Of a DNA stretch of 31,822 nucleotides, positions 244-23,295 are shown in pieces. Within the stretch, counting starts at the first letter, position 1. Each line of letters begins with the position of its first letter. A program made the translations under genes and the position numbers. The stretch is taken from positions 1 to 31,822 of the IMG/VR virus record IMGVR_UViG_3300027746_000065; one strand, given 5' to 3'. Source of the stretch: a virus. The notes below the pieces were generated by a model. It was given only the letters and a program-made list of their open reading frames with translations, was not told the DNA's origin and did no database searches.

Positions 244-2229
244 CTAGTAGTTGTTGTCTAGATCGAAGTCATCAATGGTTTGTAATCTGTCGGAACGGGC
301 TGGTACCACCCCGTACCTATCGGTACGGTGTGTGGTTCCCATAGCCACCATAGGGTCTAGAGGGTGGTTCCCGAGGGTGGTTCCCGATTCTAGGGGGTCT
401 GAGGTGGGTAGTTGGCGACATTGGATGGCTCGGGAGAGTACAGATTTGCGTCCGAGTTTGGCTCCGAGTTCTTTGGCGATGCGCTGTGCTTCGTTGACTC
501 CAGCGTTCTTTGGGATGCCTAATGTGTCGAGGTGTTTGGCTAGGGCGATTTCTTGGACTGTCCAGCCTTTGGTTGCTCTGGTGCGTTGTCGAATGGTGGT
601 GATGTCGTCAAACTCTTCGACGATGAGGTCAATCTTCTCTGGTACCCAGCTGATCCGTGTGTGGGTTCTTACAAGCATCAGTCCGTCGTCGGTCTTGTCG
701 AGCCGGTACACGATGTCCACGTCGTCGTTCTTGGCTGATGATCCGCGTTGGCCGTGTTTCTTGCCACCGTCTTTGCCTGCGTGATCTGTGCGCACACAGG
801 CGATACCTGCGCGCTTGAGGGCTAGTCCTGTGGTTCGTGCGAACTCGCGATATGAGTCAGCAGAGTTCTCTTCACCTTCGATGGCTCGTCCTGTTGTGTC
901 AATCACTACAACCTCAGCCTTGGTCAGTTCACACAGTCGCATGATGGCTGAGGCACCTTCAGCGGTGTTCAGTGGGGGTAGGGATGGTATGAGCGCGTAG
1001 TGGAGGTGGGACAGGTCATCTTCTTCTGTGTAGCCGAATTGTTCTAGGCGTTCATACAGGTCGGCTTCAACCATTTCATAGTCCAAGTACAAGACGTGGA
1101 CATGTGCTACAGGTGGGTGTCCGAGGATTTGTTTGCCTGTGGCAAGTGCTGCAACGACGTTGAGTGTGAGCCATGACTTACCTGTCTTTGCACCGGCAAA
1201 CAACGCTGTCTGTCTTGCACGTGCGATCAACGGTTTGGCAATCCAATCTTCGATGACGTGTTCTTGTGTCCAGAATGTTTTCCAATCCACCAGCATGCCG
1301 AGCATCTCGTCGGGTGTGATGGTGGTGTTGTCGGCTGGGGTGGTGTTGTGGGCTAAGAATTGTTTGGCTGCTTGTTTCCAGTCGCCGTGATGGTCACGTG
1401 CAGCCATGTATCCGAATCGGTTGTATCCGCCTTCGGGGAGCCATGCAACGGCTGAGGTGAACACGATGAGTGCATCGTTGCCGTTGTGACCAATCGTGGC
1501 CGAGATGCCATCACGCGAGTCTTTGCCTGGTCGAGTCCAATGTTGTTCACCATGTCGGTCTGTTTTGGCGAGTGTCCAGCCGTCTGGGATGAGGAGCTGC
1601 TCCCATGTGGTTTGCGCACAGTATCTTGCGCTCGGTGTCGTTGGGTCAGCGAGGAACAGGTCGGTCGTGCCTTGGGGCTTGACCATCTGTGGGTTGGTCG
1701 TGAGAAGCGTCAGGAGCCACTGTGGTGCGTTGGCAGGCCGTCTGTCCATAGGTGACCACCCATCAACCCACTGGTACTGCTTACCGTTTGGATGCACCGT
1801 TGGTGCAGCCAAGACTTGCCCACCCTCACCCCGAATATCTAAGCCCACCCCAAGCCGTGACCCAGCATCATTCCGCACCTCAACCGGTGAGTAGAAGTAC
1901 AGGTGTTGTCCTCCTGTGCCGGTGATCGCTGTGACCGTTTCAGGTAACGCACCGTAACGCTGCTCCAAGTCGTGCAACGTGTCTGAGCCTCGATACTCGT
2001 CGCGATCATCCACATCAACGACAAAGATTTGTCCGTACTTTGTGCGACCTGTGGCGATGCCGATGCCGTAGCTCTTGTAGTCACCAGTGAACCATGATGT
2101 GACCACATCGGTGTCATCGGTTGCTTTGGTTTGCCAAGCATCAATGCCAGGGTATTTGTGTCCAGGACGAATCGGTATCACCCTGATACCTAATTGTGTA
2201 TAAGCGATTGCTGTCTCAAGTGTTGTCAC
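244..2229 (-). CDS. Bifunctional primase-polymerase / RepA-like helicase ATPase
   Basis: This 661-aa replication protein has an N-terminal AEP primase-polymerase domain (about 1-180). Its motif I is VDVDD (D72/D74), its motif II GTGGQH (H109), and its motif III lies around LDIRGEGG (D131). A RecA-fold RepA-like ATPase follows, with Walker A GAKTGKS (346-352) and Walker B VVVID (440-444), plus TDHAGKDGG near 481-489. It probably primes and unwinds phage DNA; no separate replicative DNA polymerase was found. The start is a GTG at 2229, overlapping the upstream endonuclease gene by 14 bases. The last 50 or so residues look unconserved and coincide with repeats and a hairpin in the DNA (see 301-385). 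The family assignment is firm; the division of labour with the PrimPol at 17294 is unknown. Confidence 0.9.
   Translation of the reverse strand: MTTLETAIAYTQLGIRVIPIRPGHKYPGIDAWQTKATDDTDVVTSWFTGDYKSYGIGIATGRTKYGQIFVVDVDDRDEYRGSDTLHDLEQRYGALPETVTAITGTGGQHLYFYSPVEVRNDAGSRLGVGLDIRGEGGQVLAAPTVHPNGKQYQWVDGWSPMDRRPANAPQWLLTLLTTNPQMVKPQGTTDLFLADPTTPSARYCAQTTWEQLLIPDGWTLAKTDRHGEQHWTRPGKDSRDGISATIGHNGNDALIVFTSAVAWLPEGGYNRFGYMAARDHHGDWKQAAKQFLAHNTTPADNTTITPDEMLGMLVDWKTFWTQEHVIEDWIAKPLIARARQTALFAGAKTGKSWLTLNVVAALATGKQILGHPPVAHVHVLYLDYEMVEADLYERLEQFGYTEEDDLSHLHYALIPSLPPLNTAEGASAIMRLCELTKAEVVVIDTTGRAIEGEENSADSYREFARTTGLALKRAGIACVRTDHAGKDGGKKHGQRGSSAKNDDVDIVYRLDKTDDGLMLVRTHTRISWVPEKIDLIVEEFDDITTIRQRTRATKGWTVQEIALAKHLDTLGIPKNAGVNEAQRIAKELGAKLGRKSVLSRAIQCRQLPTSDPLESGTTLGNHPLDPMVAMGTTHRTDRYGVVPARSDRLQTIDDFDLDNNY
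301..385. other. Repeat and hairpin cluster, candidate replication origin
   Basis: Three exact copies of GTGGTTCCC lie at 332-340, 364-372 and 377-385. The last two sit inside a 13-base tandem repeat, GAGGGTGGTTCCC (360-372 and 373-385). Just beside them is a perfect 7-bp hairpin, CCGTACC (311-317), loop TATC, GGTACGG (322-328). The cluster falls in the 3' end of the primase-helicase gene, where the protein tail shows no recognisable domain. The 13-base unit is not a multiple of three, so the repeat is not explained by repeated protein sequence. Iterons beside a hairpin in an initiator gene suggest an origin, but this is inference. Confidence 0.3.
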
Positions 2230-7376: not shown

Positions 7377-7763
7377 TTATGTGTGCCGATGGGGATACTC
7401 ACCTGGGGGTGTTGCAGGGTTGTTTGGTTGGTCTAATTCGAGCAGCAGTTCAGCCCATTTCTGTGCAGGCATCACCGCATACCAGTCAGCAGGATCGGTT
7501 GATCCACGCCGTTTCACGATGACTGCACCTGCCCAAGCCTTGGCGTTCTTCATCTCAACCTCCAGCTCACGGAGATACCCAGGCAGGTCAATTCTTTTCT
7601 CATTCTTCACCTCGATGCACACACCTGGCATGCCGTCAATGTCGCCTCGATCATCTGTCCATCCGGCACGGGAGCGTTCAGCACCAGTCCAGCCAAGACG
7701 GTTGAGCCACTTAGCCACCGCCAACTCTGCTGCTGATCCTTTGCGCTTCTGAGGTGATGTCAC
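7377..7763 (-). CDS. Holliday-junction-resolvase-like PD-(D/E)XK nuclease
   Basis: This 128-aa protein begins with KRKGSAAELAVAKWLNRLGW (a helix with E13) and continues with RGDIDGMPGVCIEVKNEK. The D41 to E51-x-K53 spacing is the PD-(D/E)XK nuclease core as seen in small archaeal/phage Hjc-type resolvases and VRR-type nucleases. A trailing LPGYLRELEVEMKNA helix and an AVIVKRRG strand complete the fold. The start overlaps the WhiB stop as ATGA. The Pro-rich tail (NNPATPPGEYPHRHT) is probably disordered. It may resolve junctions from replication or recombination. Confidence 0.75.
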   Translation of the reverse strand: MTSPQKRKGSAAELAVAKWLNRLGWTGAERSRAGWTDDRGDIDGMPGVCIEVKNEKRIDLPGYLRELEVEMKNAKAWAGAVIVKRRGSTDPADWYAVMPAQKWAELLLELDQPNNPATPPGEYPHRHT

Positions 7764-8059
7764 GATGTCAAGACTCTAATGTTCTTTCGGAGCGCACGTC
7801 GTATGCGTTCACGTTCATTGGTTGATGTACCAGCCCAAATACCTTGGTCATCGTTCTTCATTGCGAACGCTAAACATTCGCGTCGCACAGGGCAGGTGCC
7901 ACAAATAACTTTTGCTGCACGAACAAAAATGCTGTTGCCTTCGTTGAAGAACAGATCAGTCTGACCTTTGCATTTCGCTTGAGTCATCCATTCAGGTTGT
8001 GTTGGTCTGAAGACATGTGCGCCTTCAGACCAACTATCAACAACGTGACCTTCGCTCAT
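7760..8059 (-). CDS. whiB: WhiB-family Fe-S transcription regulator
   Basis: This 99-aa protein carries the WhiB hallmarks: C30 followed by KGQTDLFF, then C53, C56 and C62 (CGTCPVRREC), then GIWAGTS, and a basic C-terminal helix (RERIRRALRK). Four cysteines hold a 4Fe-4S cluster, and the tail contacts DNA or sigma factor. WhiB proteins are confined to Actinobacteria and their phages, which is the best host clue here. ATG at 8059 overlaps the previous TGA (ATGA); a longer frame to 8200 covers the upstream membrane protein and is not used. It may redirect host transcription, or in some phages counter host WhiB function. Target genes cannot be told from the sequence. Confidence 0.95.
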   Translation of the reverse strand: MSEGHVVDSWSEGAHVFRPTQPEWMTQAKCKGQTDLFFNEGNSIFVRAAKVICGTCPVRRECLAFAMKNDDQGIWAGTSTNERERIRRALRKNIRVLTS

Positions 8060-8334
8060 TTGTGTGTTGGATGGTTGAGTCGAGCCTTGGCAACACGCTT
8101 CAAAGTTTTGATGGCGCGTTTGTTGGCACGATGTTCTTTGCTGATGAGTAGATGAACAAGGATGAGCATCACGAAGTTGATGATGATCCAAGTCACCCAC
8201 GCTTGTTGGGATACTGGTGTTGGTTGTCCTTCTGGAATATCTTCACCGGTCATTGGTAACAGGAAGAACAACCATCCAATCATTGTGAATGCGATGATCC
8301 AGCCTGCCTTGATTCTGTCTGTTAGTGGTTCCAT
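8056..8334 (-). CDS. Two-TM membrane protein, holin-like
   Basis: This 92-aa protein has two transmembrane segments, around 12-27 (IIAFTMIGWLFFLLP) and 47-64 (WVTWIIINFVMLILVHLL), followed by a basic tail (RANKRAIKTLKR). The ribosome binding site is strong (AGGAGGGCAAACAA before ATG). It directly follows the secreted transglycosylase gene, so a holin or other membrane role in lysis is plausible. A second set of membrane proteins lies at the endolysin (10417-11654), so the true holin is uncertain. Confidence 0.7.
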   Translation of the reverse strand: MEPLTDRIKAGWIIAFTMIGWLFFLLPMTGEDIPEGQPTPVSQQAWVTWIIINFVMLILVHLLISKEHRANKRAIKTLKRVAKARLNHPTHK

Positions 8335-11490: not shown

Positions 11491-11654
11491 TCTGATTCTT
11501 CTTTCTTGGTGAGTGCGCCGATCAGGTGCAGAACTAATGCTCCAACAGTAAGCCAGATCACGACTCGTTGGATAGCCCCAGACAACGTGAGGATCGTCGT
11601 GACAGATGCAGCAATCGTCCACAGCAACGCATGGAACTCACCCCATATCTTCAT
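11487..11654 (-). CDS. Two-TM holin-like protein, 55 aa
   Basis: This gene was read directly: ATG at 11652-11654, TGA at 11487-11489, ATGA overlaps on both sides. The product (MKIWGEFHALLWTIAASVTT...) has two hydrophobic helices (about 9-28 and 31-48) and a short charged end (TKKEESE). It lies just before the other holin-like gene and the endolysin. Two such proteins in tandem fit a holin/antiholin pair. Confidence 0.65.
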   Translation of the reverse strand: MKIWGEFHALLWTIAASVTTILTLSGAIQRVVIWLTVGALVLHLIGALTKKEESE

Positions 11655-13054
11655 CGTCTATTCCTTCGGATTGGTGCAGGGGCTGACACCAAGAATACAG
11701 CACTGAGAGCGATCAGCGCACGTCGAGTCTTGATAGGCACAGTCTGATTCGTCATCACATAATCATCAGCAAAACCTTGGAACAGATTCAACACGGCCTC
11801 GAATGCTTTACGCACAGATGACGGTGCATCTTGTACAGCAGCCACCAACTCAGTCGCCTGCTCCGTTGATAGTTCTTCAACCGCTACCTGCTCAAATACT
11901 TGCTCGGCTTCAGCGTTCGTTAGCACCTCAAGGATTGCCGGTTCGGATGCAATGGAGACGGCTTGGTCGGTGGTAAGTGCGAAGGTGAGCAGCTCGGTGA
12001 CGATGGCTTTGACTTCTGCTGGGGTTGCTTGCTCAATGTTGGCGAGGGCTTCAACAACAGCCTTATCGCTGATGGGTGGGAGTGGTGCGTCTTCGGCTGG
12101 TTGGCTTGTCTCAGGGGCTTGTGGTGCTTCTGGCAGGGTGTCTGGGGGTGGGGGCATGGTCGCTGGGGGCAATGGCATTGTGTCTAGGGGCAATGGGATT
12201 GTCGGTATCGTGGCTGGTGGCTCAGGCATGGTGCTTGGCACGGGAGGGAATAATGGTTGTAGTACGTATGGCAGGGTGGGTGGTGGCTCAGGGATTGTCT
12301 CTGGTGGGGCTGGCATTGTTGTGGGTGGTGGAGGCACCGTTTCAGGTGGTGGTGGCTGTGTCGATGTTGTACTTGTTGTTGAAGTTGTGGTCGTCGAAGA
12401 AGTAGTTGTTGAACTTGTAGTCGTAGTCGTGCTGCTTGTAGTTGTCTCAGGGATAGTTGTCGTTGTCTGAGGGATAGTTGTCGTAGTCTGAGGGATAGTT
12501 GTCGTAGTTGATTCACCGTTGGTTGTGAACGCATCATCCGGAACGATTGCCCATCCCTCATTGTTGATGTTCCATGCGAGCATCACACAGGTGTTCCCGC
12601 CGTTCTCGTACATCCACAAGTCGAGTGGTTGACTGCCTGCACTAATGTCTATCTGCCCAGACTCCATCCAAGAGCAACCCTGATCACCCCAGTAGCCCCA
12701 CTCGTTGCCACCAATGTTGATACGGCCACCATCATCAGAAGCCAACCAGAACTCAATCGTGTTGTGTTCAGGGATAGTGATGAACCCAGTCATGTGAACC
12801 ATGAACAGATCGCCTGTGCAATCTAGATACGGTTCACCGTCATACGAGCGGTTGATGTTGTTTTCCACCTCCGACCCACACAATGGATACTCACTGTCAG
12901 ACATGACAGGAGGAACAAGATCAATCATGTAATACGACGTGAACAACCCTGGTGCCGGATCAGCTGACGCTGACGGAATAAAACTAAAGATCGAGGCTAG
13001 AAGCGCAGGAGCAACAACTAACCAGCGGCTACGAAAGAAGGAGAACAACCTCAT
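11651..13054 (-). CDS. Secreted PA14-domain, Thr/Pro-rich surface protein
   Basis: The ATG at 13054 gives 467 aa and a clear signal peptide (hydrophobic 10-28, cleavage near SASA at 28-31); the frame also extends to 13141. Residues about 35-175 form a PA14-like carbohydrate-binding beta domain (LFTSYYMIDL, FWLASDDGGRINIGG). A Thr-rich run with 7-residue repeats (TTTTIPQ) and a long Pro-rich spacer follow, then helical segments. The end has a hydrophobic helix (ALIALSAVFLVSAP) and an Arg-rich tail. This resembles an exported, membrane-anchored cell-surface protein rather than a virion part. It sits between the tail fibre genes and the holins. Superinfection exclusion, host adhesion or a lysis role are possible; none is shown. 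Confidence 0.75.
   Translation of the reverse strand: MRLFSFFRSRWLVVAPALLASIFSFIPSASADPAPGLFTSYYMIDLVPPVMSDSEYPLCGSEVENNINRSYDGEPYLDCTGDLFMVHMTGFITIPEHNTIEFWLASDDGGRINIGGNEWGYWGDQGCSWMESGQIDISAGSQPLDLWMYENGGNTCVMLAWNINNEGWAIVPDDAFTTNGESTTTTIPQTTTTIPQTTTTIPETTTSSTTTTTSSTTTSSTTTTSTTSTTSTQPPPPETVPPPPTTMPAPPETIPEPPPTLPYVLQPLFPPVPSTMPEPPATIPTIPLPLDTMPLPPATMPPPPDTLPEAPQAPETSQPAEDAPLPPISDKAVVEALANIEQATPAEVKAIVTELLTFALTTDQAVSIASEPAILEVLTNAEAEQVFEQVAVEELSTEQATELVAAVQDAPSSVRKAFEAVLNLFQGFADDYVMTNQTVPIKTRRALIALSAVFLVSAPAPIRRNRR
12445..12507. repeat. Three 21-bp tandem repeats in the Thr-rich spacer
   Basis: Copies begin at 12445, 12466 and 12487, with core TCTGAGGGATAGTTGTCGTA and small changes in the first. 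They encode the repeated TTTTIPQ unit of the PA14 protein. Such in-frame tandem units can expand or contract by slippage, changing spacer length. Confidence 0.8.
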
Positions 13055-13271
13055 CAGCCGTGATTCCCAAACGATTGAGAATTGCTTGTCTTGCCTGTTC
13101 CTTTTCAATTTGTAATTGTTCGGCTTTGTTCTTGACGGCATCTAATTCTCTATCTGTCAAATCTGTTCTGTTGTCACTTGTGCCAATCCATATCGTGCCA
13201 TCAGGCTCAACGCTTATTGGTTCTTGATGACCTAATGCAACGGCAGCGGCAATCAATAAAATTACGTTCAT
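13029..13271 (-). CDS. Small protein with hydrophobic N terminus behind the tail fibre
   Basis: This 80-aa protein starts at ATG 13271, overlapping the tail fibre stop as ATGA, and overlaps the PA14 gene start by 26 bases. It has a hydrophobic N-terminal stretch (MNVILLIAAAVALG), a short beta part, and a C-terminal helix ending AILNRLGITADEVVLLLS. That ending recurs in small proteins that follow tail fibre genes in other phages, perhaps a tail assembly helper or an exported protein. Its DNA is AT-rich (24 G+C in 60 bases at 13081-13140). Confidence 0.65.
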   Translation of the reverse strand: MNVILLIAAAVALGHQEPISVEPDGTIWIGTSDNRTDLTDRELDAVKNKAEQLQIEKEQARQAILNRLGITADEVVLLLS

Positions 13272-14009: not shown

Positions 14010-15260
14010 CTATTGTAGTGCGAAGTCGGTGTCGTCGAGGGCTGAGGTGTCCAGGATGAATGGTAGTACAAGTTGGACTTGACCCATTCCGATGGTGACG
14101 CGATGTGTTGATGGGTTGACTGTGTGCCGTATGGATTCGACCACTACGTTCTGTGTCACCGTTGCCGGTGTACCAGTAGAGAATGTCTTAGTCACTGACA
14201 GGATGTCACCAATCTCTAGCCCTGCCATCTGTGCTTGTTGTGCGGTAGTCAACGCATTCAACAACACATCCATCTCCGAGAACCTGACCACAGGGTCTTG
14301 GAACCGTGACAACAACGATGCAGCCAACGCTGACCCAGCAGCATCAGTGGCCAACGGAACCCCAGTCAACGACAACGCTTTGATCCCATACTCAGCCTGA
14401 CTAGCTGTACCAGACGCAATGCTTGAAGCCGTACCACCATCAATCTGCACAGCCACACGATTCAACACCGTCTCAGCCCCATACACATTCGCCAAAGACT
14501 GAATCGGAATCGCAGCCGTACCACCAAACGAAGCCACAGCCGTACCAAACGACACCGCAATCCGCTTATCAAACGACACCATCCCAGAACGATCCACAAA
14601 CAAACGCCCACCCTCAGCCGTCGCCACATCCTGCAACGCCTGCAACACATTCGTGGCATCCTCATACGCAACCGTTCCACATGTCGCAACCCCAGTCTCA
14701 ATGTTTCGCAACGCAGTGGAGAACGCCACCTCTGGTCGATCCAAGATTGCTGACACACGCGCAGATGTGAGTTGTGATGAAGGGTTGAATGCGGTCAGCA
14801 CGGTTTGACCGAGTTGGCCGAGCGCGTCGGTGGCAACGATTGTTGCTGTTGACAGGTTGGGTTCGGCATAATCAATGTTCAAGTCGTACACGAAGCCTGT
14901 GAACATTGCTGTGGTTCCGGCTGTACCGCCGTACACCTGGAACTTGCGTCGTGGTGCGATACCAACAGTGCCACCTGAATACCATTCTGATGCTGTGTTC
15001 AGTGGATCAAAGTATCGTGCAGCTGCACGGTCATCGGCTTGGATTGTGCAAGATGATGATGGGAACGAATCAAGTTGGGTGGCACGACCACGATTGATAT
15101 TGATGTTTGTTACATACTCGGTGATGTCCACAAACTCTGTTGAACCATCCAACACATCCGTGCTGTCAAGTTTGCTGGAATCCAATGTGAACGCATCAGC
15201 CAAGAAACCGACATCCAACAAGACCTTGTATGTTGAACCCCACTTCGCAGCCTTAGCCAT
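14010..15260 (-). CDS. Minor tail protein
   Basis: This 416-aa protein follows the tape measure gene (TAATG overlap at 15260) and precedes the tail fibre gene, the position of the baseplate hub or distal tail protein. It has a 'VTNININRGRATQLDSFPSSSCTIQADD' type sequence common in actinophage minor tail proteins, then a beta-rich middle, then an ending in RVTIGMGQVQLVLPF. Both termini carry the LD-rich motif: FTLDSSKLDSTDVLDG (24-39) and FILDTSALDD near the C terminus. The same motif is in the repeat protein at 26732-27418. Exact subunit role is inferred from position. Confidence 0.8.
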   Translation of the reverse strand: MAKAAKWGSTYKVLLDVGFLADAFTLDSSKLDSTDVLDGSTEFVDITEYVTNININRGRATQLDSFPSSSCTIQADDRAAARYFDPLNTASEWYSGGTVGIAPRRKFQVYGGTAGTTAMFTGFVYDLNIDYAEPNLSTATIVATDALGQLGQTVLTAFNPSSQLTSARVSAILDRPEVAFSTALRNIETGVATCGTVAYEDATNVLQALQDVATAEGGRLFVDRSGMVSFDKRIAVSFGTAVASFGGTAAIPIQSLANVYGAETVLNRVAVQIDGGTASSIASGTASQAEYGIKALSLTGVPLATDAAGSALAASLLSRFQDPVVRFSEMDVLLNALTTAQQAQMAGLEIGDILSVTKTFSTGTPATVTQNVVVESIRHTVNPSTHRVTIGMGQVQLVLPFILDTSALDDTDFALQ

Positions 15261-17284
15261 TAGTTACCTGCAAAGAACGCATTGCCGCCGTTCACTCTCC
15301 CACGTCGAGTCAACAGATCAGCGATCTGATCAGCAACATCTGAAGGCGTAGCCACCAACCCAGCATTCACATTCACCACCATCCCACCCCCAGCAGGATT
15401 CGCCATGAACCCAGTCGAGTTACCAGTCACCGTTGCCGGAATAGATGCAGCCACACCAGCCATCGGGTTCGCAGCAACAACCTTTGGATACAACAGTTGA
15501 GTCTCCCCAACCTTCTTGATCGCCTCACGATAGTTGTCCAACGCTTCAGTCTCACGTTCAATCGCCTCAGCCACAGCATCAGTCGCATCAGCCTGCTTCT
15601 GCTTCGCATCAGTCAACGCATCCGACAAAGTTTTCAATATCTCCGAACCAGCCGACGCACCAAAGACTGCCTCATTCAACAAACCAGTCGCAGTCGTCAA
15701 ACTCTTAGTCGCCTCAGTCTGCTGATCAATCGCATCAGCACTCGACAACTTCGCCTCAGCCAACGCAATCTCAGCCTCACGAATCATCTGAGGTGTTGAC
15801 TCAGGATCAGCACGAACCTTCTTCAACGCCTCCTCAGCATCTTTGATCGCAAACAACGAACCCTCCACGTTGTACCCAGCACGTTCCAACCCACGCTGAG
15901 CCTGTGTCAACTCGAACGCAGCCTTCCTAGCCTGCGGCGAATCAGCACCATACCCAGCCACAGCCTGATCCAACGCAGCCTGCGCATCAGCCACACCTTG
16001 GTTCGCAGCCGTCAACGACTTACCAGCCTGCACCGAAGCCTTCTGCGCCTGAGTGAAGGACTTCTGTGCAGAATTGCTTGACTTCAACGCATCGGTATAA
16101 ACCTTCAACTTCTCCGTCGCGGTCTTCACAGCCTTGGCCACACCGCCCCCACCCCCAGCCCCATCACCGAGCGTGTCCGCTGTGATCTTGCCAGTCTTAT
16201 TGAAGAACCGTTCAGCAGCATCAGCAGACATCAACTCAGTTTTGAAACGGTTGACAGGAATAGCAATGTTGTCAAATGATGCCTTCAAATTGTCAATATT
16301 GATTGCTGTACCAGTCAACGCTTTGTATGCATCCTTGGCTGCTTGACCTGCTGCGAATGGTGCCTCTGCGGTAGCTTTCGCAAAGTAATAAGCCTTGTAC
16401 AGAACATTGACTAATTCGGCACCTGCAACAGCCATAGTTTTGAAGGCTGCGACAACCGATGTTCCGGCACCTCCAGATTCAAATATCAGTTGCTGGAACC
16501 CTGCAATCAAACCATCTTTTCCAATAACAGTTGTGATTCGAGATACGGCAGGAGCAACCTTCTCTGTTAGAAACTTGGCAAACTGATCCAAGTATGGGAG
16601 CAACGCTGCACCAATCGTTTCAACAATCTCACCGAACTGACCTTTGATGATTTTGAGTCTGCCACTGAATGTGTCAGCAGCAGTTGCAGATGCACCACCA
16701 AAGGTCGCAGTCAACGACTCCAACACCTTCTGGAAGTCTTTGGACTTGAGAACATTCTCATCGATTGGCACACCCAACTTCTTCAATGCTGTGAAGTTGC
16801 CCAAACTGGCCTTGCCCAAACTGAGGCTCACAGCCGTCAAGTCATTACCAGTAGCACTGGCAATATCTTGCGCCAAACTCAACAGACCAGTCGCTTTGCT
16901 GTAGTCACCAGTGGCGCGAGTCAACCCACCCAACGCTGCTCGAAGATTCGTATCAGACTCACCTGTCAAAAGTTGTTGAGTTGCAATCAATCGTTCTGTA
17001 GATGCGATCAACTGATCACTAGCACCGAAGGTTGTTTGCAACTGTTTCGCTAACAACGCTTGAGACTTCTCATCTTCAGCAGCAGCCTGCACAGCCTTGA
17101 ATGCAAACGCACTCACAGCACCGAACGCAGCTGCACCAGCAATCGCCATTGTCTTGAATGACGGCAACAGACTTGACACCTGGGTCTTCAACCCACCCAT
17201 GCCATCGTTGACTTGCTTGATCCCCTTCTTGTATTGCTCAGCGTCAGCAAGGAATCGAACTACGAAGGTACGTGCGCCAGCCAT
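15260..17284 (-). CDS. Tape measure protein
   Basis: This 674-aa protein is the longest gene of the window. It starts MAGARTFVVRFLADAEQYKKGI, as siphovirus tape measures do, has a hydrophobic stretch (about 44-69, around AIAGAAAFGAVSAFAF), and long Ala/Gln/Lys-rich helical segments (about 390-600) expected of a protein stretched inside the tail. A Gly-rich hinge (DGAGGGGGVAKAV) lies near 376-388. It sets tail length and is ejected with DNA. At about 1.5 angstrom per residue, 674 residues imply a tail of roughly 100 nm; that is a rule-of-thumb estimate. It comes after the gp10-like and PrimPol genes rather than directly after the tail chaperones. Confidence 0.9.
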   Translation of the reverse strand: MAGARTFVVRFLADAEQYKKGIKQVNDGMGGLKTQVSSLLPSFKTMAIAGAAAFGAVSAFAFKAVQAAAEDEKSQALLAKQLQTTFGASDQLIASTERLIATQQLLTGESDTNLRAALGGLTRATGDYSKATGLLSLAQDIASATGNDLTAVSLSLGKASLGNFTALKKLGVPIDENVLKSKDFQKVLESLTATFGGASATAADTFSGRLKIIKGQFGEIVETIGAALLPYLDQFAKFLTEKVAPAVSRITTVIGKDGLIAGFQQLIFESGGAGTSVVAAFKTMAVAGAELVNVLYKAYYFAKATAEAPFAAGQAAKDAYKALTGTAINIDNLKASFDNIAIPVNRFKTELMSADAAERFFNKTGKITADTLGDGAGGGGGVAKAVKTATEKLKVYTDALKSSNSAQKSFTQAQKASVQAGKSLTAANQGVADAQAALDQAVAGYGADSPQARKAAFELTQAQRGLERAGYNVEGSLFAIKDAEEALKKVRADPESTPQMIREAEIALAEAKLSSADAIDQQTEATKSLTTATGLLNEAVFGASAGSEILKTLSDALTDAKQKQADATDAVAEAIERETEALDNYREAIKKVGETQLLYPKVVAANPMAGVAASIPATVTGNSTGFMANPAGGGMVVNVNAGLVATPSDVADQIADLLTRRGRVNGGNAFFAGN

Positions 17285-17293
17285 GCGCCAATT

Positions 17294-17998
17294 CTAGATG
17301 ACATCCTCACAAGCCGAGCGCAAGGCACGGAAGTCAGCCAACACAGCAGACCACAATGCTTTACCTTCAAGACCGTCGTACTTCGTTATCACCTTGCCTG
17401 CATCCCACCACGCATCATTCATCTCAACACCGATAGTGCGCTTGCGTCGAGGTTGCGCAGACTGACGTGGTGACGCAGGTGTTGGGTTCCGTGCAGGTTC
17501 GTATTGGAAGTCTGTGTCAATGAATGCACCTGATTGTTCGTGGAACTCAAACGGTTGATCTGGTGCATGTTGCGGAAGATAGAAGATACGCGCAGCATCT
17601 TTCGTTGCAGGGTCACCTTGCAAGTTGATTCGTTCATGCAACTCAGCCCACACAGCTCGCCACAGTCCTGCCGGTACACGCTCAGCCAACGGAAGAACCA
17701 AGTGGTAGTGAGGATCATCTAGTCGATGTGAGTATGTGGAATAGGCAAGATACTCAAACCCGTCAAGGTTGGCATTCGCAAACGACTCACCGTCCATGTC
17801 AACAACCAACGCTTCAATGAACCGAACCGCAGTATTACCGCGAGTCCTACCTGGGTAATACTCAACAGGTGACCACAACGCACCATCAGACTTGTGCGCA
17901 TTCTCCTCATGGTGCATCAAGCGTTCCTTGAGGTCAACCCAATTTGATGCGAACGGCTTCGGCTGAACAGACTTGACCGAATCAAAATAGACAACCAT
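17294..17998 (-). CDS. Stand-alone PrimPol-like replication protein inside the tail operon
   Basis: This 234-aa protein has the AEP primase motifs: VVDMDG (D67/D69), YSTYSH (86-91) with HYHLVLPL (97-104), and KDAARIFYLP (133-142). These match small phage and plasmid PrimPol/RepB-type primases. The C-terminal 70 residues are basic and Pro-rich, then helical (WWDAGKVITKYDG, LWSAVLADFRALRSACEDV). The start at 17998 has an excellent ribosome binding site (GGGAGGCGTTC). It lies between a gp10-like tail completion gene and the tape measure, where structural genes are expected, and is expressed in the same direction. A late or alternative priming role, or a moron inserted in the tail operon, are possibilities. 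It is distinct from the primase-helicase at 244-2229. Confidence 0.8.
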   Translation of the reverse strand: MVVYFDSVKSVQPKPFASNWVDLKERLMHHEENAHKSDGALWSPVEYYPGRTRGNTAVRFIEALVVDMDGESFANANLDGFEYLAYSTYSHRLDDPHYHLVLPLAERVPAGLWRAVWAELHERINLQGDPATKDAARIFYLPQHAPDQPFEFHEQSGAFIDTDFQYEPARNPTPASPRQSAQPRRKRTIGVEMNDAWWDAGKVITKYDGLEGKALWSAVLADFRALRSACEDVI

Positions 17999-18040
17999 GA
18001 ACGCCTCCCTATCTACAGGGTAGCGAAACCACAGCCAAAG

Positions 18041-18691
18041 TCAAGACTTATCTTCAAGCCCTTTGAGAACCTCATCAATCGCATCCAAATACACCCTGGC
18101 AATGTTGTCCTTGTTCTTGCGCACAGCAGGCCAGAAGAAGTATCCCTTCTGTCCACGATGCGGAAGGAACTGGGTAGTCCGACCCCCACCCTTACGCAAG
18201 CCATCTGAAGCAACTCGGTTGCCCTGTGAATCAACTCTTGTTGCCCGTGATCTAGCCCCAGCCGAAGTCCTATTCGATGAACCATATTTACCACCACCGA
18301 ACTCGGCACCAAAGAACACATCACCTCTGGTCACCTTGCGCTTTACCCTGCGTCGTGTCTTGATGCTGTAAGAAGACGAGAACTTCCGTGACTTTGATTG
18401 GAACGCAGAGTTCTCCTGCAACTTGATGATCGGGATTCGGTCGCGTTGCGCTCGCATACCCTTCATCACTTCCATTGCTTGCCGATTGCGTTCCACAGAT
18501 GCAGCTTCAAACTTCGCTGCAACAACTAGAAGTTCAGCAACCCGTTCACCAGCCTTGCGAGCTTCTTTGTTGAAGTCAGGATATGTCTTGGCAAGATCAC
18601 GAAGGAAGTTGTCAATCCCCTTGATCATCACAGGGTCTTTGGATAAATCCTCCGAACCTGTGAACGTGCCACCTCGACTAAGACCTGCCAT
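18041..18691 (-). CDS. HK97 gp10-like tail/head-tail completion protein
   Basis: This 216-aa basic protein has, near its end, FGAEFGGGKYGSS, then FLPHRGQKGYFFWPAVR, then a helix ending EVLKGLEDKS. The 'EFGGGKY....FLPHRG..GYFFWP' pattern is typical of gp10-like proteins of actinophages, which act at the head-tail joint or tail terminus. It follows the frameshifted tail chaperone by 9 bases. Usual gene order puts gp10-like proteins before the tail tube, so the location after the chaperones is unusual. Confidence 0.75.
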   Translation of the reverse strand: MAGLSRGGTFTGSEDLSKDPVMIKGIDNFLRDLAKTYPDFNKEARKAGERVAELLVVAAKFEAASVERNRQAMEVMKGMRAQRDRIPIIKLQENSAFQSKSRKFSSSYSIKTRRRVKRKVTRGDVFFGAEFGGGKYGSSNRTSAGARSRATRVDSQGNRVASDGLRKGGGRTTQFLPHRGQKGYFFWPAVRKNKDNIARVYLDAIDEVLKGLEDKS

Positions 18692-18700
18692 GATCCGATA

Positions 18701-19110
18701 CTACTTGCCTAGATGAATGGCTCTCCATCGAAGGTACGCCAACATTGTAAACAGCATTCGTGGTTCTTCTGCCAGCAGTGAACTCGGCGATATTCCAGTC
18801 TCGCAAGCGAGATAGGAAATTACCCAGTGTGCTGACTTGTCTCCAAAGGGACGATCACTGCGTCTGCGCTATCTCCCACTTCGAGTGCTTCAATCTCCTC
18901 GCACCATGATTCAAAGTCCAACCCAGTTTTCTTCAACCGTTTCTCTGCATGCCATCCAAGGTATGCAAGATCGGTCAAGGTGAGTTCGTCTTCAAACTTG
19001 GCGACACTGCGATTGTATTTATTCTCAAACGCAATGAAGTCAGGGAACGCAGCAATGATTGTGCGTTGCTTGCCATCTAATGCACTAGTCAAACTGAGTG
19101 CGATCTTCAT
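18701..19110 (-). CDS. Tail assembly chaperone, -1 frameshift product
   Basis: A -1 shift at the slippery heptamer CCCTTTG (minus strand, plus coordinates 18844-18850) fuses the 96-aa chaperone frame to an open -1 frame ending with TAG at 18701-18703. The predicted product is 136 aa. Its new part reads HWVISYLACETGISPSSL, then LLAEEPRMLFTMLAYLRW, the form expected for the second (gpGT-type) chaperone. In-frame codons at the site are GTC CCT TTG, so P- and A-site tRNAs can re-pair on CCC and TTT. The stop lies 9 bases before the next gene, which explains the 128-base gap otherwise left. The same mechanism is known for lambda gpG/gpGT and many siphoviruses. Confidence 0.85.
18820..19110 (-). 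CDS. Tail assembly chaperone, unshifted form
   Basis: This 96-aa product is the zero-frame version, ending in TAA at 18820-18822. It has a helical core around FPDFIAFENKYNRSV and DLAYLGWHAEKRLKKTG, as in gpG-type chaperones that bind the tape measure. GGAGGTAAAG gives a strong ribosome binding site before ATG at 19110. It lies after the tail tube gene, the standard location. Confidence 0.85.
   Translation of the reverse strand: MKIALSLTSALDGKQRTIIAAFPDFIAFENKYNRSVAKFEDELTLTDLAYLGWHAEKRLKKTGLDFESWCEEIEALEVGDSADAVIVPLETSQHTG
18844..18850 (-). other. Programmed -1 frameshift site CCCTTTG
   Basis: On the minus strand this is CCCTTTG in the zero-frame phase X XXY YYZ, within codons GTC CCT TTG. 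A 12-base palindrome (18800-18811, CTCGC/GCGAG around two bases) lies 32 bases downstream on the mRNA, beyond the usual distance for a stimulator. See the frameshift product entry. Confidence 0.8.
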
Positions 19111-19147: not shown

Positions 19148-19570
19148 TCAGCCGTTGGTGCCAGTCTTGGTGATTGCACCAGAGATTGGATACGTGATTG
19201 AGACGGTGGCTAGGTCGCCTATGGCACCATTTACGGGTGTCCAGCTTGTAGGCAGAACGGAAAACGCATACTGAGGCGACGTAGAGCTAGCAGCAGCAGT
19301 GCCGTTTGGCTTCACTGTCATCGGTACAGCAGTACCAGCAGTGAACGCATCCCAGAACAACTTCTCAATCGTTGGGTAATCCTGTTGCAACTCAAGCGTG
19401 ATCGAGTTATCAATCATCCCCTGGATGCGCGTCATGGCTGAAGACCCCATCGCCGAAGTCACAACTTCAGCAGCTGTCGTCGACAGAGTGATACTTGTGA
19501 CGTATGAACTGATGTCGGTTGCAGCAGTACCGAAGGTGACTGCCACGTTTGTGAGAACTTGCTTTGCCAT
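19148..19570 (-). CDS. Major tail tube protein
   Basis: This 140-aa protein starts MAKQVLTNVAVTFG and reads DISSYVTSITLSTTAAEV, then ITLELQQDYPTIEKLFWDAF, then VPMTVKPNG and ends with an Ala/Thr-rich beta strand. This matches the small major tail proteins of actinophages that stack as hexameric rings in the tail tube. It follows tail-completion genes and precedes the chaperones. The ribosome binding site AGGAG lies in one copy of a 12-base direct repeat. Confidence 0.8.
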   Translation of the reverse strand: MAKQVLTNVAVTFGTAATDISSYVTSITLSTTAAEVVTSAMGSSAMTRIQGMIDNSITLELQQDYPTIEKLFWDAFTAGTAVPMTVKPNGTAAASSTSPQYAFSVLPTSWTPVNGAIGDLATVSITYPISGAITKTGTNG

Positions 19571-20708: not shown

Positions 20709-21356
20709 CTAGTTTATGGACGCGGCTCCACGATACTGCGTACCTTCCAAACTGTAGTTGATAAACGGATTCAACGAATAGACCTGACATCCGTACATCT
20801 CAAACAAGCGTTGCTTCATGTCTCGAAGGTGCAACTCATACAACTCCCAAGGATGCTCACCCTGCACATAACCATCCACCCGTTCAGCACCACCCAAAGT
20901 TCCACAATCAGCACCGACCAACACAATGAACTTCGCACCCAGATACGCAGCCAAGTGCATCGCACCATGAATCCCAGATGAGCCGATCACCAGAGAGTTG
21001 TCGAGCGTAGGCCAGTCCTTGCCGGACGGATTGAACGAAGTGCCAGGACGACCAGTGGTCGTTGGGAACGTGACAACCTTGGACACCTCCACCAAGAACT
21101 CTGCATCCGTGCCATGCTCGCGATGAGGCGTGAACACAGCGATTGATTCGTCACGCCTCGCTTCCAATACAGCGTCAGCGTGATAGTGGCTGAACACGTA
21201 ATACCTGCGCAGACCGAACACTGACCCAGCGAAGTTTGTTGCCACACAAATCTTGTCATCAAAGAAACTCGGTGCCAGATAGTTCAATGTCGCACCAGAC
21301 CCGAACACATAGATCGTCTCAAACTCATGCCTATTGCGGTAGTCGATCAATCCCAT
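20709..21356 (-). CDS. Rossmann-fold MptE-like/DUF115-type protein
   Basis: ATG at 21356 overlaps the previous stop and follows GGGAGTTCGG, so this start is preferred over 21386; the product has 215 aa. It contains TIYVFGSGATLNYLAP, a Rossmann-like nucleotide-binding turn, then FSHYHADAV and LVIGSSGIHGAMHLAAYLG, then FIVLVGADCGTLGG. This is the MptE-like/DUF115 pattern, found in sugar or sialic-acid related transfer loci and in some phages. It follows two glycosyltransferases, so a role in making or transferring a sugar is plausible. No direct evidence for substrate. Confidence 0.6.
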   Translation of the reverse strand: MGLIDYRNRHEFETIYVFGSGATLNYLAPSFFDDKICVATNFAGSVFGLRRYYVFSHYHADAVLEARRDESIAVFTPHREHGTDAEFLVEVSKVVTFPTTTGRPGTSFNPSGKDWPTLDNSLVIGSSGIHGAMHLAAYLGAKFIVLVGADCGTLGGAERVDGYVQGEHPWELYELHLRDMKQRLFEMYGCQVYSLNPFINYSLEGTQYRGAASIN

Positions 21357-22012
21357 CCGAACTCCCTTCGACGCTTCAAATCCCAATGCCCAGCGTCAGG
21401 CAAACCTGACTGCCAACGCAACTGATGCAACTCCTGATTCGCTTGGAAACTCTTGGCATTCTTCTCAGCCAACGACGGATCAGAAGCAATCGTTGAAGAA
21501 TTATCGTGAGCAATCTTCGCCTGCGAAACCTTCACATCAACATTGATCCGACGCGCACGATCCTCAAAATCGTTGTCCTCAAAATATGCAGGCACATAAC
21601 ATTCACTGAACAGACCAACCCGTTCAACCACACCAGCACCCACCCACGCACACGACCAAGGCTGCGCCGCACCAGTCAACGTGAGGTTGTCAGGTTCGCA
21701 ATCTTTGTAGAACGCTTCTAGTTGACCTGGTTCAAACCATGCGTCAGAGTTCAACAGAATCCAACCTTCCGCGTGAGGTGTTGCTTTGATACCAAGATTC
21801 CACGATGGTGCCACACCAAGATTCGTTGGCATCCTCCACAAATACCAGTTCTGAACATGTTGCCAAGGCGCAGTCCAAGCCAACATGTCAGCGTCATATC
21901 CATCGCCGTTGTCGATGATGATGAGCTGCTCGACGGGATAGTCCAGCGAGCGGATCGCCCGTTCTAGTAAGTCATACCTGTTCAGGACTGGGATGATGAT
22001 GCACGGCACCAT
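21347..22012 (-). CDS. Family 2-type glycosyltransferase (GT-A)
   Basis: This 221-aa protein opens CIIIPVLNRYDLLERAIRSL, then IIIDNGDG, then NLGVAPSWNLGIK, then GWILLNSDAWF (a DxD-like NSD site), then later YFEDNDFEDRARR. These are GT2 features: a nucleotide-sugar-binding N-terminal fold and a general-base-like ED motif. No transmembrane helix is seen, so it is cytoplasmic. It overlaps the upstream GT4 gene and the MptE-like gene. It may glycosylate virion proteins or host cell-wall polymers. Confidence 0.85.
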   Translation of the reverse strand: MVPCIIIPVLNRYDLLERAIRSLDYPVEQLIIIDNGDGYDADMLAWTAPWQHVQNWYLWRMPTNLGVAPSWNLGIKATPHAEGWILLNSDAWFEPGQLEAFYKDCEPDNLTLTGAAQPWSCAWVGAGVVERVGLFSECYVPAYFEDNDFEDRARRINVDVKVSQAKIAHDNSSTIASDPSLAEKNAKSFQANQELHQLRWQSGLPDAGHWDLKRRREFGWD

Positions 22013-23295
22013 TCAGCAAGTCCCTTCATCACAGGCTTCCAATGAGCATCCCAAACAGCGTCAGCGTTGTATGCCTGTGCGAAGTCCACAGCCACCTGAT
22101 CAACCCCTCTAGGAGCGTCGTAGGCGTGTCTCAGGGCATCCACAATGGAACCCACCTGGGGAGTACAGAACCAAGAACGCTGAGCATTATCCCAAAACGG
22201 TTGCACCTCCACAGCCCACCCAGACCCAACCAACTCCGGCTGAGCAGTGAAGTCACTGACGATCACTCTGGTGCCACACGCCTGAGCCTCGATCACAGCC
22301 AACCCAAACCCTTCGCCCATACTTGCGGACAACAGCACGTCAGCTGATGCGTACATGGATGCCAATGCCTGCTGAGGGAACCCAGTGCGATATGCGTACT
22401 GATCAACAATCTTGTATTGATCCTCACGGATTCCGCAGGCATGGAGCAACGCAATCAGATTGATGCCACCCATCGCACCATCCTTCTCGGTGTGCAGATA
22501 TAACAATGCGTCAGGTTTATCTTGGGCAAAAATACCGAACGCCAACATGTTCTCAGCAAACGACTTACGAGACGGAGACGCACCCTTGTTCGCTGCATTC
22601 ATCATCACCACAAACTTGTCATCAGGAACATCACCCATCAACTGCCGACCAGTGAACTCCCTACCAGCATTCGCAAACTTGACATCAGGATTGAACACCG
22701 ACTCAATCCCATGCGGAACATAGAAACATTCCACATCAGCATCATTCAACATTTTTTCACCGAACCGAGACATCGCAATCGGTTTCACATTCGGACGCGC
22801 ACACCACTCAACAACATCTGCTGGACAAGGCGCATGATCAATCGGAACCCACGACGCAATGTTCGCAACCATCTCCAACGACTTTGACTTCAACGGCCAC
22901 ACATCAAACAAAGTCATCAACAACGATGGCAACTCAGGATTACCATTCGACCAATCCATTCCGTGAGCAACCATCACATCATCGCTGTATGGTGCCATCC
23001 CACGTGGATACATTTTGATTCCATTCCAATTTGACGAAACTCCTTCAAGTCCGTACATGGCATGGATTGCTACTTCGTGACCTTCTTTGACGAGCCTTGT
23101 GACGGCTTGCGCGGTTTGCGTACCGTAACCGGTGGGGACGAAGGGAGCATTGCTGTACCAGAGGATTCGTAGCGCGTCCCCATTGGTAGGTCTGCTACTT
23201 CTGGCAAGTGTGCTATTCCCCGATGTAACAACATCTCGGCTTCGAGGGGTGGTAGTTCGACCATTGTGTTTCGGATTATTACCAGCATTCTTCAC
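21982..23295 (-). CDS. Family 4-type glycosyltransferase (GT-B)
   Basis: This product has the GT-B core: ILWYSNAPFVPTGYGTQ (N-terminal Rossmann), WVPIDHAP, YVPHGIE, VVMMNAANKGASPSRKS, and EGFGLAVIEAQACG, which contains the E-x7-E motif of GT4 enzymes. The only start in frame is GTG at 23295, giving 437 aa, and AAGGAGAAGGAA precedes it. Residues 2-43 before the core are low in complexity and overlap all of a small gene in another frame (23070-23288). The core alone (from about 23167) has no ATG, GTG or TTG close by. The N-terminal tail may be a by-product of the overlap. The enzyme likely transfers a sugar to a phage or host acceptor. Confidence 0.85.
   Translation of the reverse strand: MKNAGNNPKHNGRTTTPRSRDVVTSGNSTLARSSRPTNGDALRILWYSNAPFVPTGYGTQTAQAVTRLVKEGHEVAIHAMYGLEGVSSNWNGIKMYPRGMAPYSDDVMVAHGMDWSNGNPELPSLLMTLFDVWPLKSKSLEMVANIASWVPIDHAPCPADVVEWCARPNVKPIAMSRFGEKMLNDADVECFYVPHGIESVFNPDVKFANAGREFTGRQLMGDVPDDKFVVMMNAANKGASPSRKSFAENMLAFGIFAQDKPDALLYLHTEKDGAMGGINLIALLHACGIREDQYKIVDQYAYRTGFPQQALASMYASADVLLSASMGEGFGLAVIEAQACGTRVIVSDFTAQPELVGSGWAVEVQPFWDNAQRSWFCTPQVGSIVDALRHAYDAPRGVDQVAVDFAQAYNADAVWDAHWKPVMKGLAEWCRASSSQS
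23070..23288 (-). CDS. Small head-region protein overlapping the glycosyltransferase
   Basis: This 72-aa frame (MLVIIRNTMVELPPLEAEML...) ends in a basic tail (RKPRKPSQGSSKKVTK). It looks like the small proteins that follow the major capsid gene in many HK97-like phages: a short beta strand, an LPPLEAE.LL..GIA helix, and a Lys-rich tail. ATG at 23288 has AAGGAA at a good distance. It lies wholly inside the glycosyltransferase frame, one base out of phase, so one or both must be constrained. I consider it real but less certain. Confidence 0.5.
   Translation of the reverse strand: MLVIIRNTMVELPPLEAEMLLHRGIAHLPEVADLPMGTRYESSGTAMLPSSPPVTVRKPRKPSQGSSKKVTK

Follow-up and report, generated by a model that had tools for sequence, protein, structure and literature searches.

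Genes of the archaeo-eukaryotic primase (AEP) superfamily (primase/polymerase-type) are common in mobile elements, and motif II differs between AEP families (PMC5862659). Several phage enzymes bear comparison with the gene described here. VapE/VirE-type primase-helicases (PHROG 256, PF05272; for example, gp96 of Brevibacillus phage Emery and gp47 of Corynebacterium phage StAB) have an N-terminal AEP domain, a fused VapE ATPase, Arg in motif II and a location in the replication module. Vibrio phages henriette 12B8 (VPDG_00043) and V6Aob (V6000102) encode an AEP without a fused helicase (PHROG 9765), of 308 aa and with a longer C-terminal part, beside a helicase-type gene in the replication region (L239:3860-4786 and L242:3989-4915, the former 'hypothetical' in its record); a 301-aa relative was observed in a 71-kb contig (L249). 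In two uncultured phages (L250 and L251), AEP-AAA_25 primase-helicases of 690 and 759 aa carry a fused RepA-like helicase and Arg at the motif II positions. The PrimPol of cyanophage S-2L is a three-domain protein including PriCT-2 and a helicase part, the AEP domain of which retains polymerase activity on its own (PMC8065100), and in the NrS-1 and pRN1 enzymes a helix bundle is required for primer initiation but dispensable for extension (PMC8718748).

The window analysed here is the whole 31,822-nucleotide stretch of the viral record IMGVR_UViG_3300027746_000065. Packaging and head genes lie to the right, tail genes in the middle and replication genes to the left, and the main genes are all on the minus strand. 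ORF calling and translation placed a stand-alone AEP ORF at 17294-17998 on the minus strand, with its ATG at 17998, while the plus strand is interrupted by stops. In minus-strand reading order the genes are a tail terminator-like gene, the major tail protein gene, a 96-aa chaperone-like gene, gp216, the AEP gene and the tape measure gene. The position given by the earlier note, stand-alone between a gp10-like gene and the tape measure among tail genes, was confirmed (the gp10-like label corresponding to a weak PHROG 5 match), as was its description of the gene as a second primase-type gene beside a PrimPol-helicase, in which PF09250 and AAA_25 were found by Pfam. The features referred to below are as follows.

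244-2229, minus strand: PrimPol-helicase gene (PF09250 + AAA_25; Pfam), co-occurring with the AEP gene
15260-17284, minus strand: tape measure protein gene; no Shine-Dalgarno sequence; TAGAAT at -12 to -7 of the ATG, putative leaderless promoter
17294-17998, minus strand: stand-alone AEP (primase/polymerase-type) gene, 234 aa (translation, PHROG matches, 154 distinct relatives, AlphaFold model, Foldseek match to S-2L PrimPol)
17999-18010, minus strand: Shine-Dalgarno sequence AGGGAGG of the AEP gene (from the sequence), within the 42 nt before the gene
18017-18044, minus strand: promoter-like motif of the AEP gene, TTGACT - 16 nt - TACCCT, overlapping the gp216 stop codon (comparative motif survey)
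18041-18691, minus strand: gp216, gp10/neck-like, directly upstream of the AEP gene (PHROG 5, E 4e-4, weak; neck/tail completion); TAGTAT box
18820-19110, minus strand: tail-assembly-chaperone-like protein gene, 96 aa, 41.9% identical to phiPsal1 gp16 at the same position; anchor in the synteny survey
19148-19570: major tail protein gene, neighbour of the AEP locus

Against PHROG, the 234-aa protein matched primase families 9765 (E 1.2e-16; the best PHROG match that it shares with the Vibrio stand-alone primases) and 256 (VapE-type, E 3.1e-10), both within residues 51-163. No Pfam family was matched even at E 1, including the PF09250 Prim-Pol model that the 244-2229 protein does match; searches of NCBIfam and PADLOC gave no match, and PDB searches by sequence gave nothing real. 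With 18 near-identical sequences AlphaFold gave a pLDDT of 31, and a usable model needed a deep alignment (91 sequences; pLDDT 82.6 overall, about 93 for residues 1-165). Foldseek of this model against PDB returned one significant match, the AEP domain of S-2L PrimPol (6zp9; E 3.8e-5, probability 1.00), which is the best solved structural match despite 11% identity, with CAPP, LigD-Pol and AsfvPrimPol ranking after it, below significance. In BFVD the top matches were many VapE-type primases and an unnamed 234-aa protein at 91% identity. The latter is the same gene, present in UniProt as an uncharacterized protein of an uncultured Caudovirales phage (A0A6J5S580).

The active site comprises D67/D69 (motif I, the acidic DxD pair), H97/H99 (motif II, the sxH motif) and D129-T132-D134-R137 (motif III), and the motifs VVDMDG, YSTYSH and KDAARIFYLP that had been quoted for the protein are all present in its translation. 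Among 154 distinct tail AEPs, positions 67 and 69 hold D in 153, the exception having E, while H97 and H99 and the four motif III residues are invariant, D129 also among all distant relatives aligned. Compared with VapE-type N-terminal domains and the Vibrio stand-alone primases, D67, D69, D129, T132, R137 and other framework residues are kept. The motif set is shared with the VapE/VirE-type domains, with R53, D129, T132, R137, Y140 and P142 invariant across both, but identity to them is 22-26% (about 22% to the Vibrio primases), and at motif II the tail AEPs have H-Y-H where VapE-type relatives align K/R-x-R, the His positions being Arg/Lys in relatives. On the strength of motifs I, II and III and of the predicted fold, all of which were found, the product of 17294-17998 was confirmed as an AEP-superfamily protein; profile search and structure prediction, proposed earlier as checks for an AEP fold, both bore out this identity. 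Catalysis has probably been kept, since the near-invariance of the active-site residues would otherwise be hard to explain.

Full-length tail AEPs are about 229-253 aa and have no fused ATPase or helicase domain. In the model, the core is followed by a disordered or flexible linker (167-194), a conserved W197/W198 and one long C-terminal helix (212-233, moderate confidence), and no helix-bundle or PriCT domain was recognisable in this predicted structure. Extension or gap filling can therefore be predicted with more confidence than de novo priming, which the protein may lack or may achieve only with a partner.

In the 80 nearest IMG/VR relatives the AEP gene always lay between gp216 and the tape measure gene wherever the contig extended far enough, and an alignment search extended this to 77 further relatives (59-66% identity) and to more distant ones (43-50%), in which the neighbouring genes were unchanged. 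A survey of relatives at this site was anchored on other genes (the 96-aa chaperone-like gene, TAC96, and conn206), which avoided the bias of searching with the AEP gene itself, and found it in 46/46 TAC96-anchored contigs reaching the site and, between gp216 and the tape measure gene, in 63/63 conn206-anchored contigs, the remaining contigs ending before the site. The AEP stop codon was separated from the tape measure start by 9 nt in 129 of 148 loci. The sole broken copy seen has TAG at codon 14, a lysine in relatives (L036:2076-2114, L036 being identical to L103), from decay or sequencing error. A chance ORF was ruled out by conservation in more than 150 distinct sequences together with purifying selection (dN/dS), and a single-assembly artefact by the number of distinct sequences.

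The sister clade is of the type of the cultured Pontimonas phage phiPsal1, the portal and capsid proteins of which are each 43% identical to those of the window. The AEP gene was not found in this group (phiPsal1, 80 loci and six larger contigs), and in 43 phiPsal1-type loci the chaperone-like gene is followed by a gene of about 170-250 aa (gp216-like) and then directly by the tape measure gene. Universal presence in one clade and adjacency of the gp216-like and tape measure genes in the AEP-less sisters point to an old, clade-defining insertion. Universal presence also rules out a recent or variable moron; of the moron proposed in the earlier note, the own promoter (see below) stands, whereas variable presence and an own terminator do not, the latter having been sought by a terminator scan near the gene in which the sole consensus match lay inside the tape measure gene (17129-17108) and counts were below the shuffle mean. 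Elsewhere in the window, two glycosyltransferase-like genes and a 225-aa gene lie between capsid and connector genes (20709-23295); phiPsal1 has glycosyltransferases at the matching place, and not all relatives have the 225-aa gene. In a 496-aa protein (11651-13141), a possible host-binding or fibre component, a weak PA14-like stretch precedes a long linker rich in Thr/Ser and Pro.

Tail AEPs formed one group in the tree (support 100/96), with the AEP domains of the two AEP-AAA_25 fusions (L250 and L251; 38-39% identical) as sister (100/89). These two phages differ in having none of the window's tail genes nearby. As the tree was midpoint-rooted and has long branches, derivation from a fusion is likely rather than proven. 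AEP distances correlated with those of structural genes (Spearman 0.61-0.84, against 0.49-0.64 when structural genes were compared with one another), and dN/dS was 0.118 relative to 0.10-0.17 for virion genes. AEPs could be 97% identical where the tape measure proteins were only 41-60% identical, so AEP conservation does not track the variable tape measure. A first scan of a bacterial genome collection gave no AEP relatives; a second bacterial scan gave a single, partial match in a Rhodospirillales MAG contig (L385:1579-1836; 31% identity to the query domain). Literature searches gave no description of a primase beside a tape measure gene, nor, in the literature searched, any earlier account of a stand-alone AEP that has its own promoter and a fixed place between neck-like and tape measure genes. 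The AEP superfamily itself is already known.

Late expression, assumed in the earlier note from the location among structural genes, is not supported by the sequence upstream of the gene, where a strongly conserved host-type promoter motif and ribosome-binding site are unlike those of every neighbouring gene tested. Actinobacterial SigA-type promoters have TTGACA at -35 and TAnnnT at -10. The motif TTGACT-16-TACCCT occurs once in the window and in none of 100 shuffles, and TTGA-16/17-TAnnnT (consensus TTGAC[T/A]-16-TAnnnT) was present in 127 of 132 distinct regions upstream of the AEP gene. The hexamers are kept while the spacers vary (43 different ones for the TTGACT/TACCCT pair alone), and in some relatives the -10 box itself differs, though still within TAnnnT (TAGGGT, TACTGT). 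Among 14 head-tail module genes scored, the motif was found at 93% for AEP versus 0-3% for the others, and a Shine-Dalgarno sequence of 5-6 nt preceded the AEP gene in 154 of 154 relatives. The motif fits a SigA-like promoter. A generic promoter scan missed it because at least 4/6 matches were demanded in each hexamer; the comparative approach found it.

The flanking genes have different signals. No Shine-Dalgarno sequence of at least 4 nt was found before the tape measure gene in 148 loci. All distinct sequences scored have a TAnnnT box at about -12 to -7 of its start codon. The window's copy, TAGAAT, shares letters with the stop codon of the AEP gene (17284-17296), and in the most divergent relatives (L332 and L342) the box is kept though no longer part of the stop codon. 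For gp216, a TAnnnT box (TAGTAT; 18691-18703 in the window) immediately precedes the start codon, at about -12 to -7, in each of 86 distinct sequences, and Shine-Dalgarno sequences are rare. These patterns fit leaderless transcripts of both genes, with a putative promoter directly before the ATG. In most sister-clade loci examined, the start codon of the tape measure gene shares letters with the preceding stop codon (TAATG). As gp216, AEP and tape measure each appear to have separate promoters, the AEP gene need not be late. A WhiB-family transcription factor is encoded at 7760-8200 (PF02467, E 3.6e-17), and phiPsal1 has one too; relatedness to phiPsal1, the WhiB gene and the SigA-like boxes would together point to actinobacteria as hosts. 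The virus group is presumably a freshwater one, judging by the sampling sites that we take to lie behind the contig names.

A PF09250 PrimPol-helicase was present in 7/7 AEP contigs of at least 29 kb tested (G000, G001, G002, G021, G022, G026 and G028, the window included), with orthologs 66-98% identical among AEP-bearing contigs, and in 0/12 contigs of AEP-less relatives. Shorter AEP contigs without it are probably fragments ending before the gene. As this co-occurrence is one contrast between sister clades and may go back to one shared event, it suggests a functional pair without proving one. The PrimPol is the sole ORF above 400 aa outside the head-tail module of the window; with no other ORF of polymerase size there, no other DNA polymerase was seen in the genome. 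In this the window resembles phage S-2L (PMC8065100).

Taken together, the intact active site and own promoter suggest that the AEP gene encodes a functional second enzyme of DNA synthesis, of unproven role, rather than having been carried along by chance. The explanation that we prefer is that a catalytically competent stand-alone AEP, either derived from the AEP domain of the AEP-AAA_25 primase-helicases of phages or sister to it, would have been inserted once between the gp10/neck-like and tape measure genes in the ancestor of this actinophage clade and kept there since. It would have a host-type (SigA-like) promoter and a strong ribosome-binding site of its own, making the enzyme available independently of late tail expression, probably early. 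Its most likely function would be accessory DNA synthesis, by making primers, re-priming or filling gaps, in trans with the genome-replicating PrimPol-helicase. We infer its catalysis, its timing, its partnership with the PrimPol-helicase and its exact substrate. Against this explanation, the long stay of a replication gene in the tail module is left without a reason, the promoter is a sequence motif, the co-occurrence may be one shared event and an initiation domain was not recognised; as a whole, an active accessory AEP with its own promoter, serving PrimPol-based replication, has in our view an even chance of being correct. A more specific form is a two-AEP system: lodged in the tail module but expressed early from a host promoter of its own, the small AEP without a helicase would act in trans with the PrimPol-helicase and divide with it primer synthesis and genome copying, there being no other DNA polymerase. 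This form is tentative and would sooner prove wrong than right.

Other roles were weighed against the same data. If the AEP made or extended nucleic acid, or acted on nucleotides, and thereby inactivated a host process or defence, the gene would be a fixed moron-like unit, which agrees with the conserved promoter and strong Shine-Dalgarno sequence, with insertion between two tail genes that directly adjoin in the sister clade and with a place outside the replication operon; but it is universal in the clade rather than variable, diverges in step with the structural genes, has no PADLOC-DB match and no terminator, and its presence tracks the PrimPol replication module, so that such a role seems unlikely, if still worth consideration. 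The AEP may instead be the main lagging-strand primase, as a separate subunit, in which case the PrimPol domain fused to the helicase would serve chiefly as polymerase or initiator. Such an arrangement is suggested by the related primase directly beside a helicase-type gene in the two Vibrio phages, by co-occurrence with the PrimPol-helicase and by His at motif II where VapE-type and AAA_25-fused relatives have Arg/Lys, but it would have to accommodate a model without a recognisable helix-bundle domain for primer initiation and a gene outside the replication module, and we consider it decidedly unlikely.

Two further roles would tie the protein to the virion or its assembly. Riding in the tail or head and acting on incoming DNA would suit a gene that adjoins the tape measure gene, and AEP genes do occur in proteins delivered with DNA (PMC5512222). 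Nothing in the data, however, points to action on packaged or injected DNA, which the earlier note had raised. The proposed precedents, conjugative primases that are transferred and packaged polyvalent proteins with PrimPol domains (PMC5512222), are large multidomain proteins or act on transferred ssDNA, while the tail AEP is small, with no peptidase or packaging domain found and with expression signals unlike those of the surrounding tail genes, and there is little chance that it is an ejected primase. Recruitment of the AEP fold to a non-catalytic structural or assembly role, for example as a tape-measure chaperone, is the least likely of the rivals and very improbable: the fixed place directly before the tape measure gene, with its prevailing 9-nt gap, would fit, but the catalytic residues are near-invariant, the sister clade builds tails without an AEP, and AEP conservation is not coupled to the tape measure.

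With this analysis a previously nameless gene of a widely sampled actinophage group becomes an enzyme family open to testing, and the case illustrates that location in a late operon can mislead about the timing of a gene. The compact AEP, with a core of about 165 residues and His at motif II, sister to Arg-bearing relatives, is useful for probing the role of that position. Should the enzyme prove to act together with the PrimPol-helicase, it would reveal how priming and copying are shared between two AEPs in phages that lack a classical polymerase.
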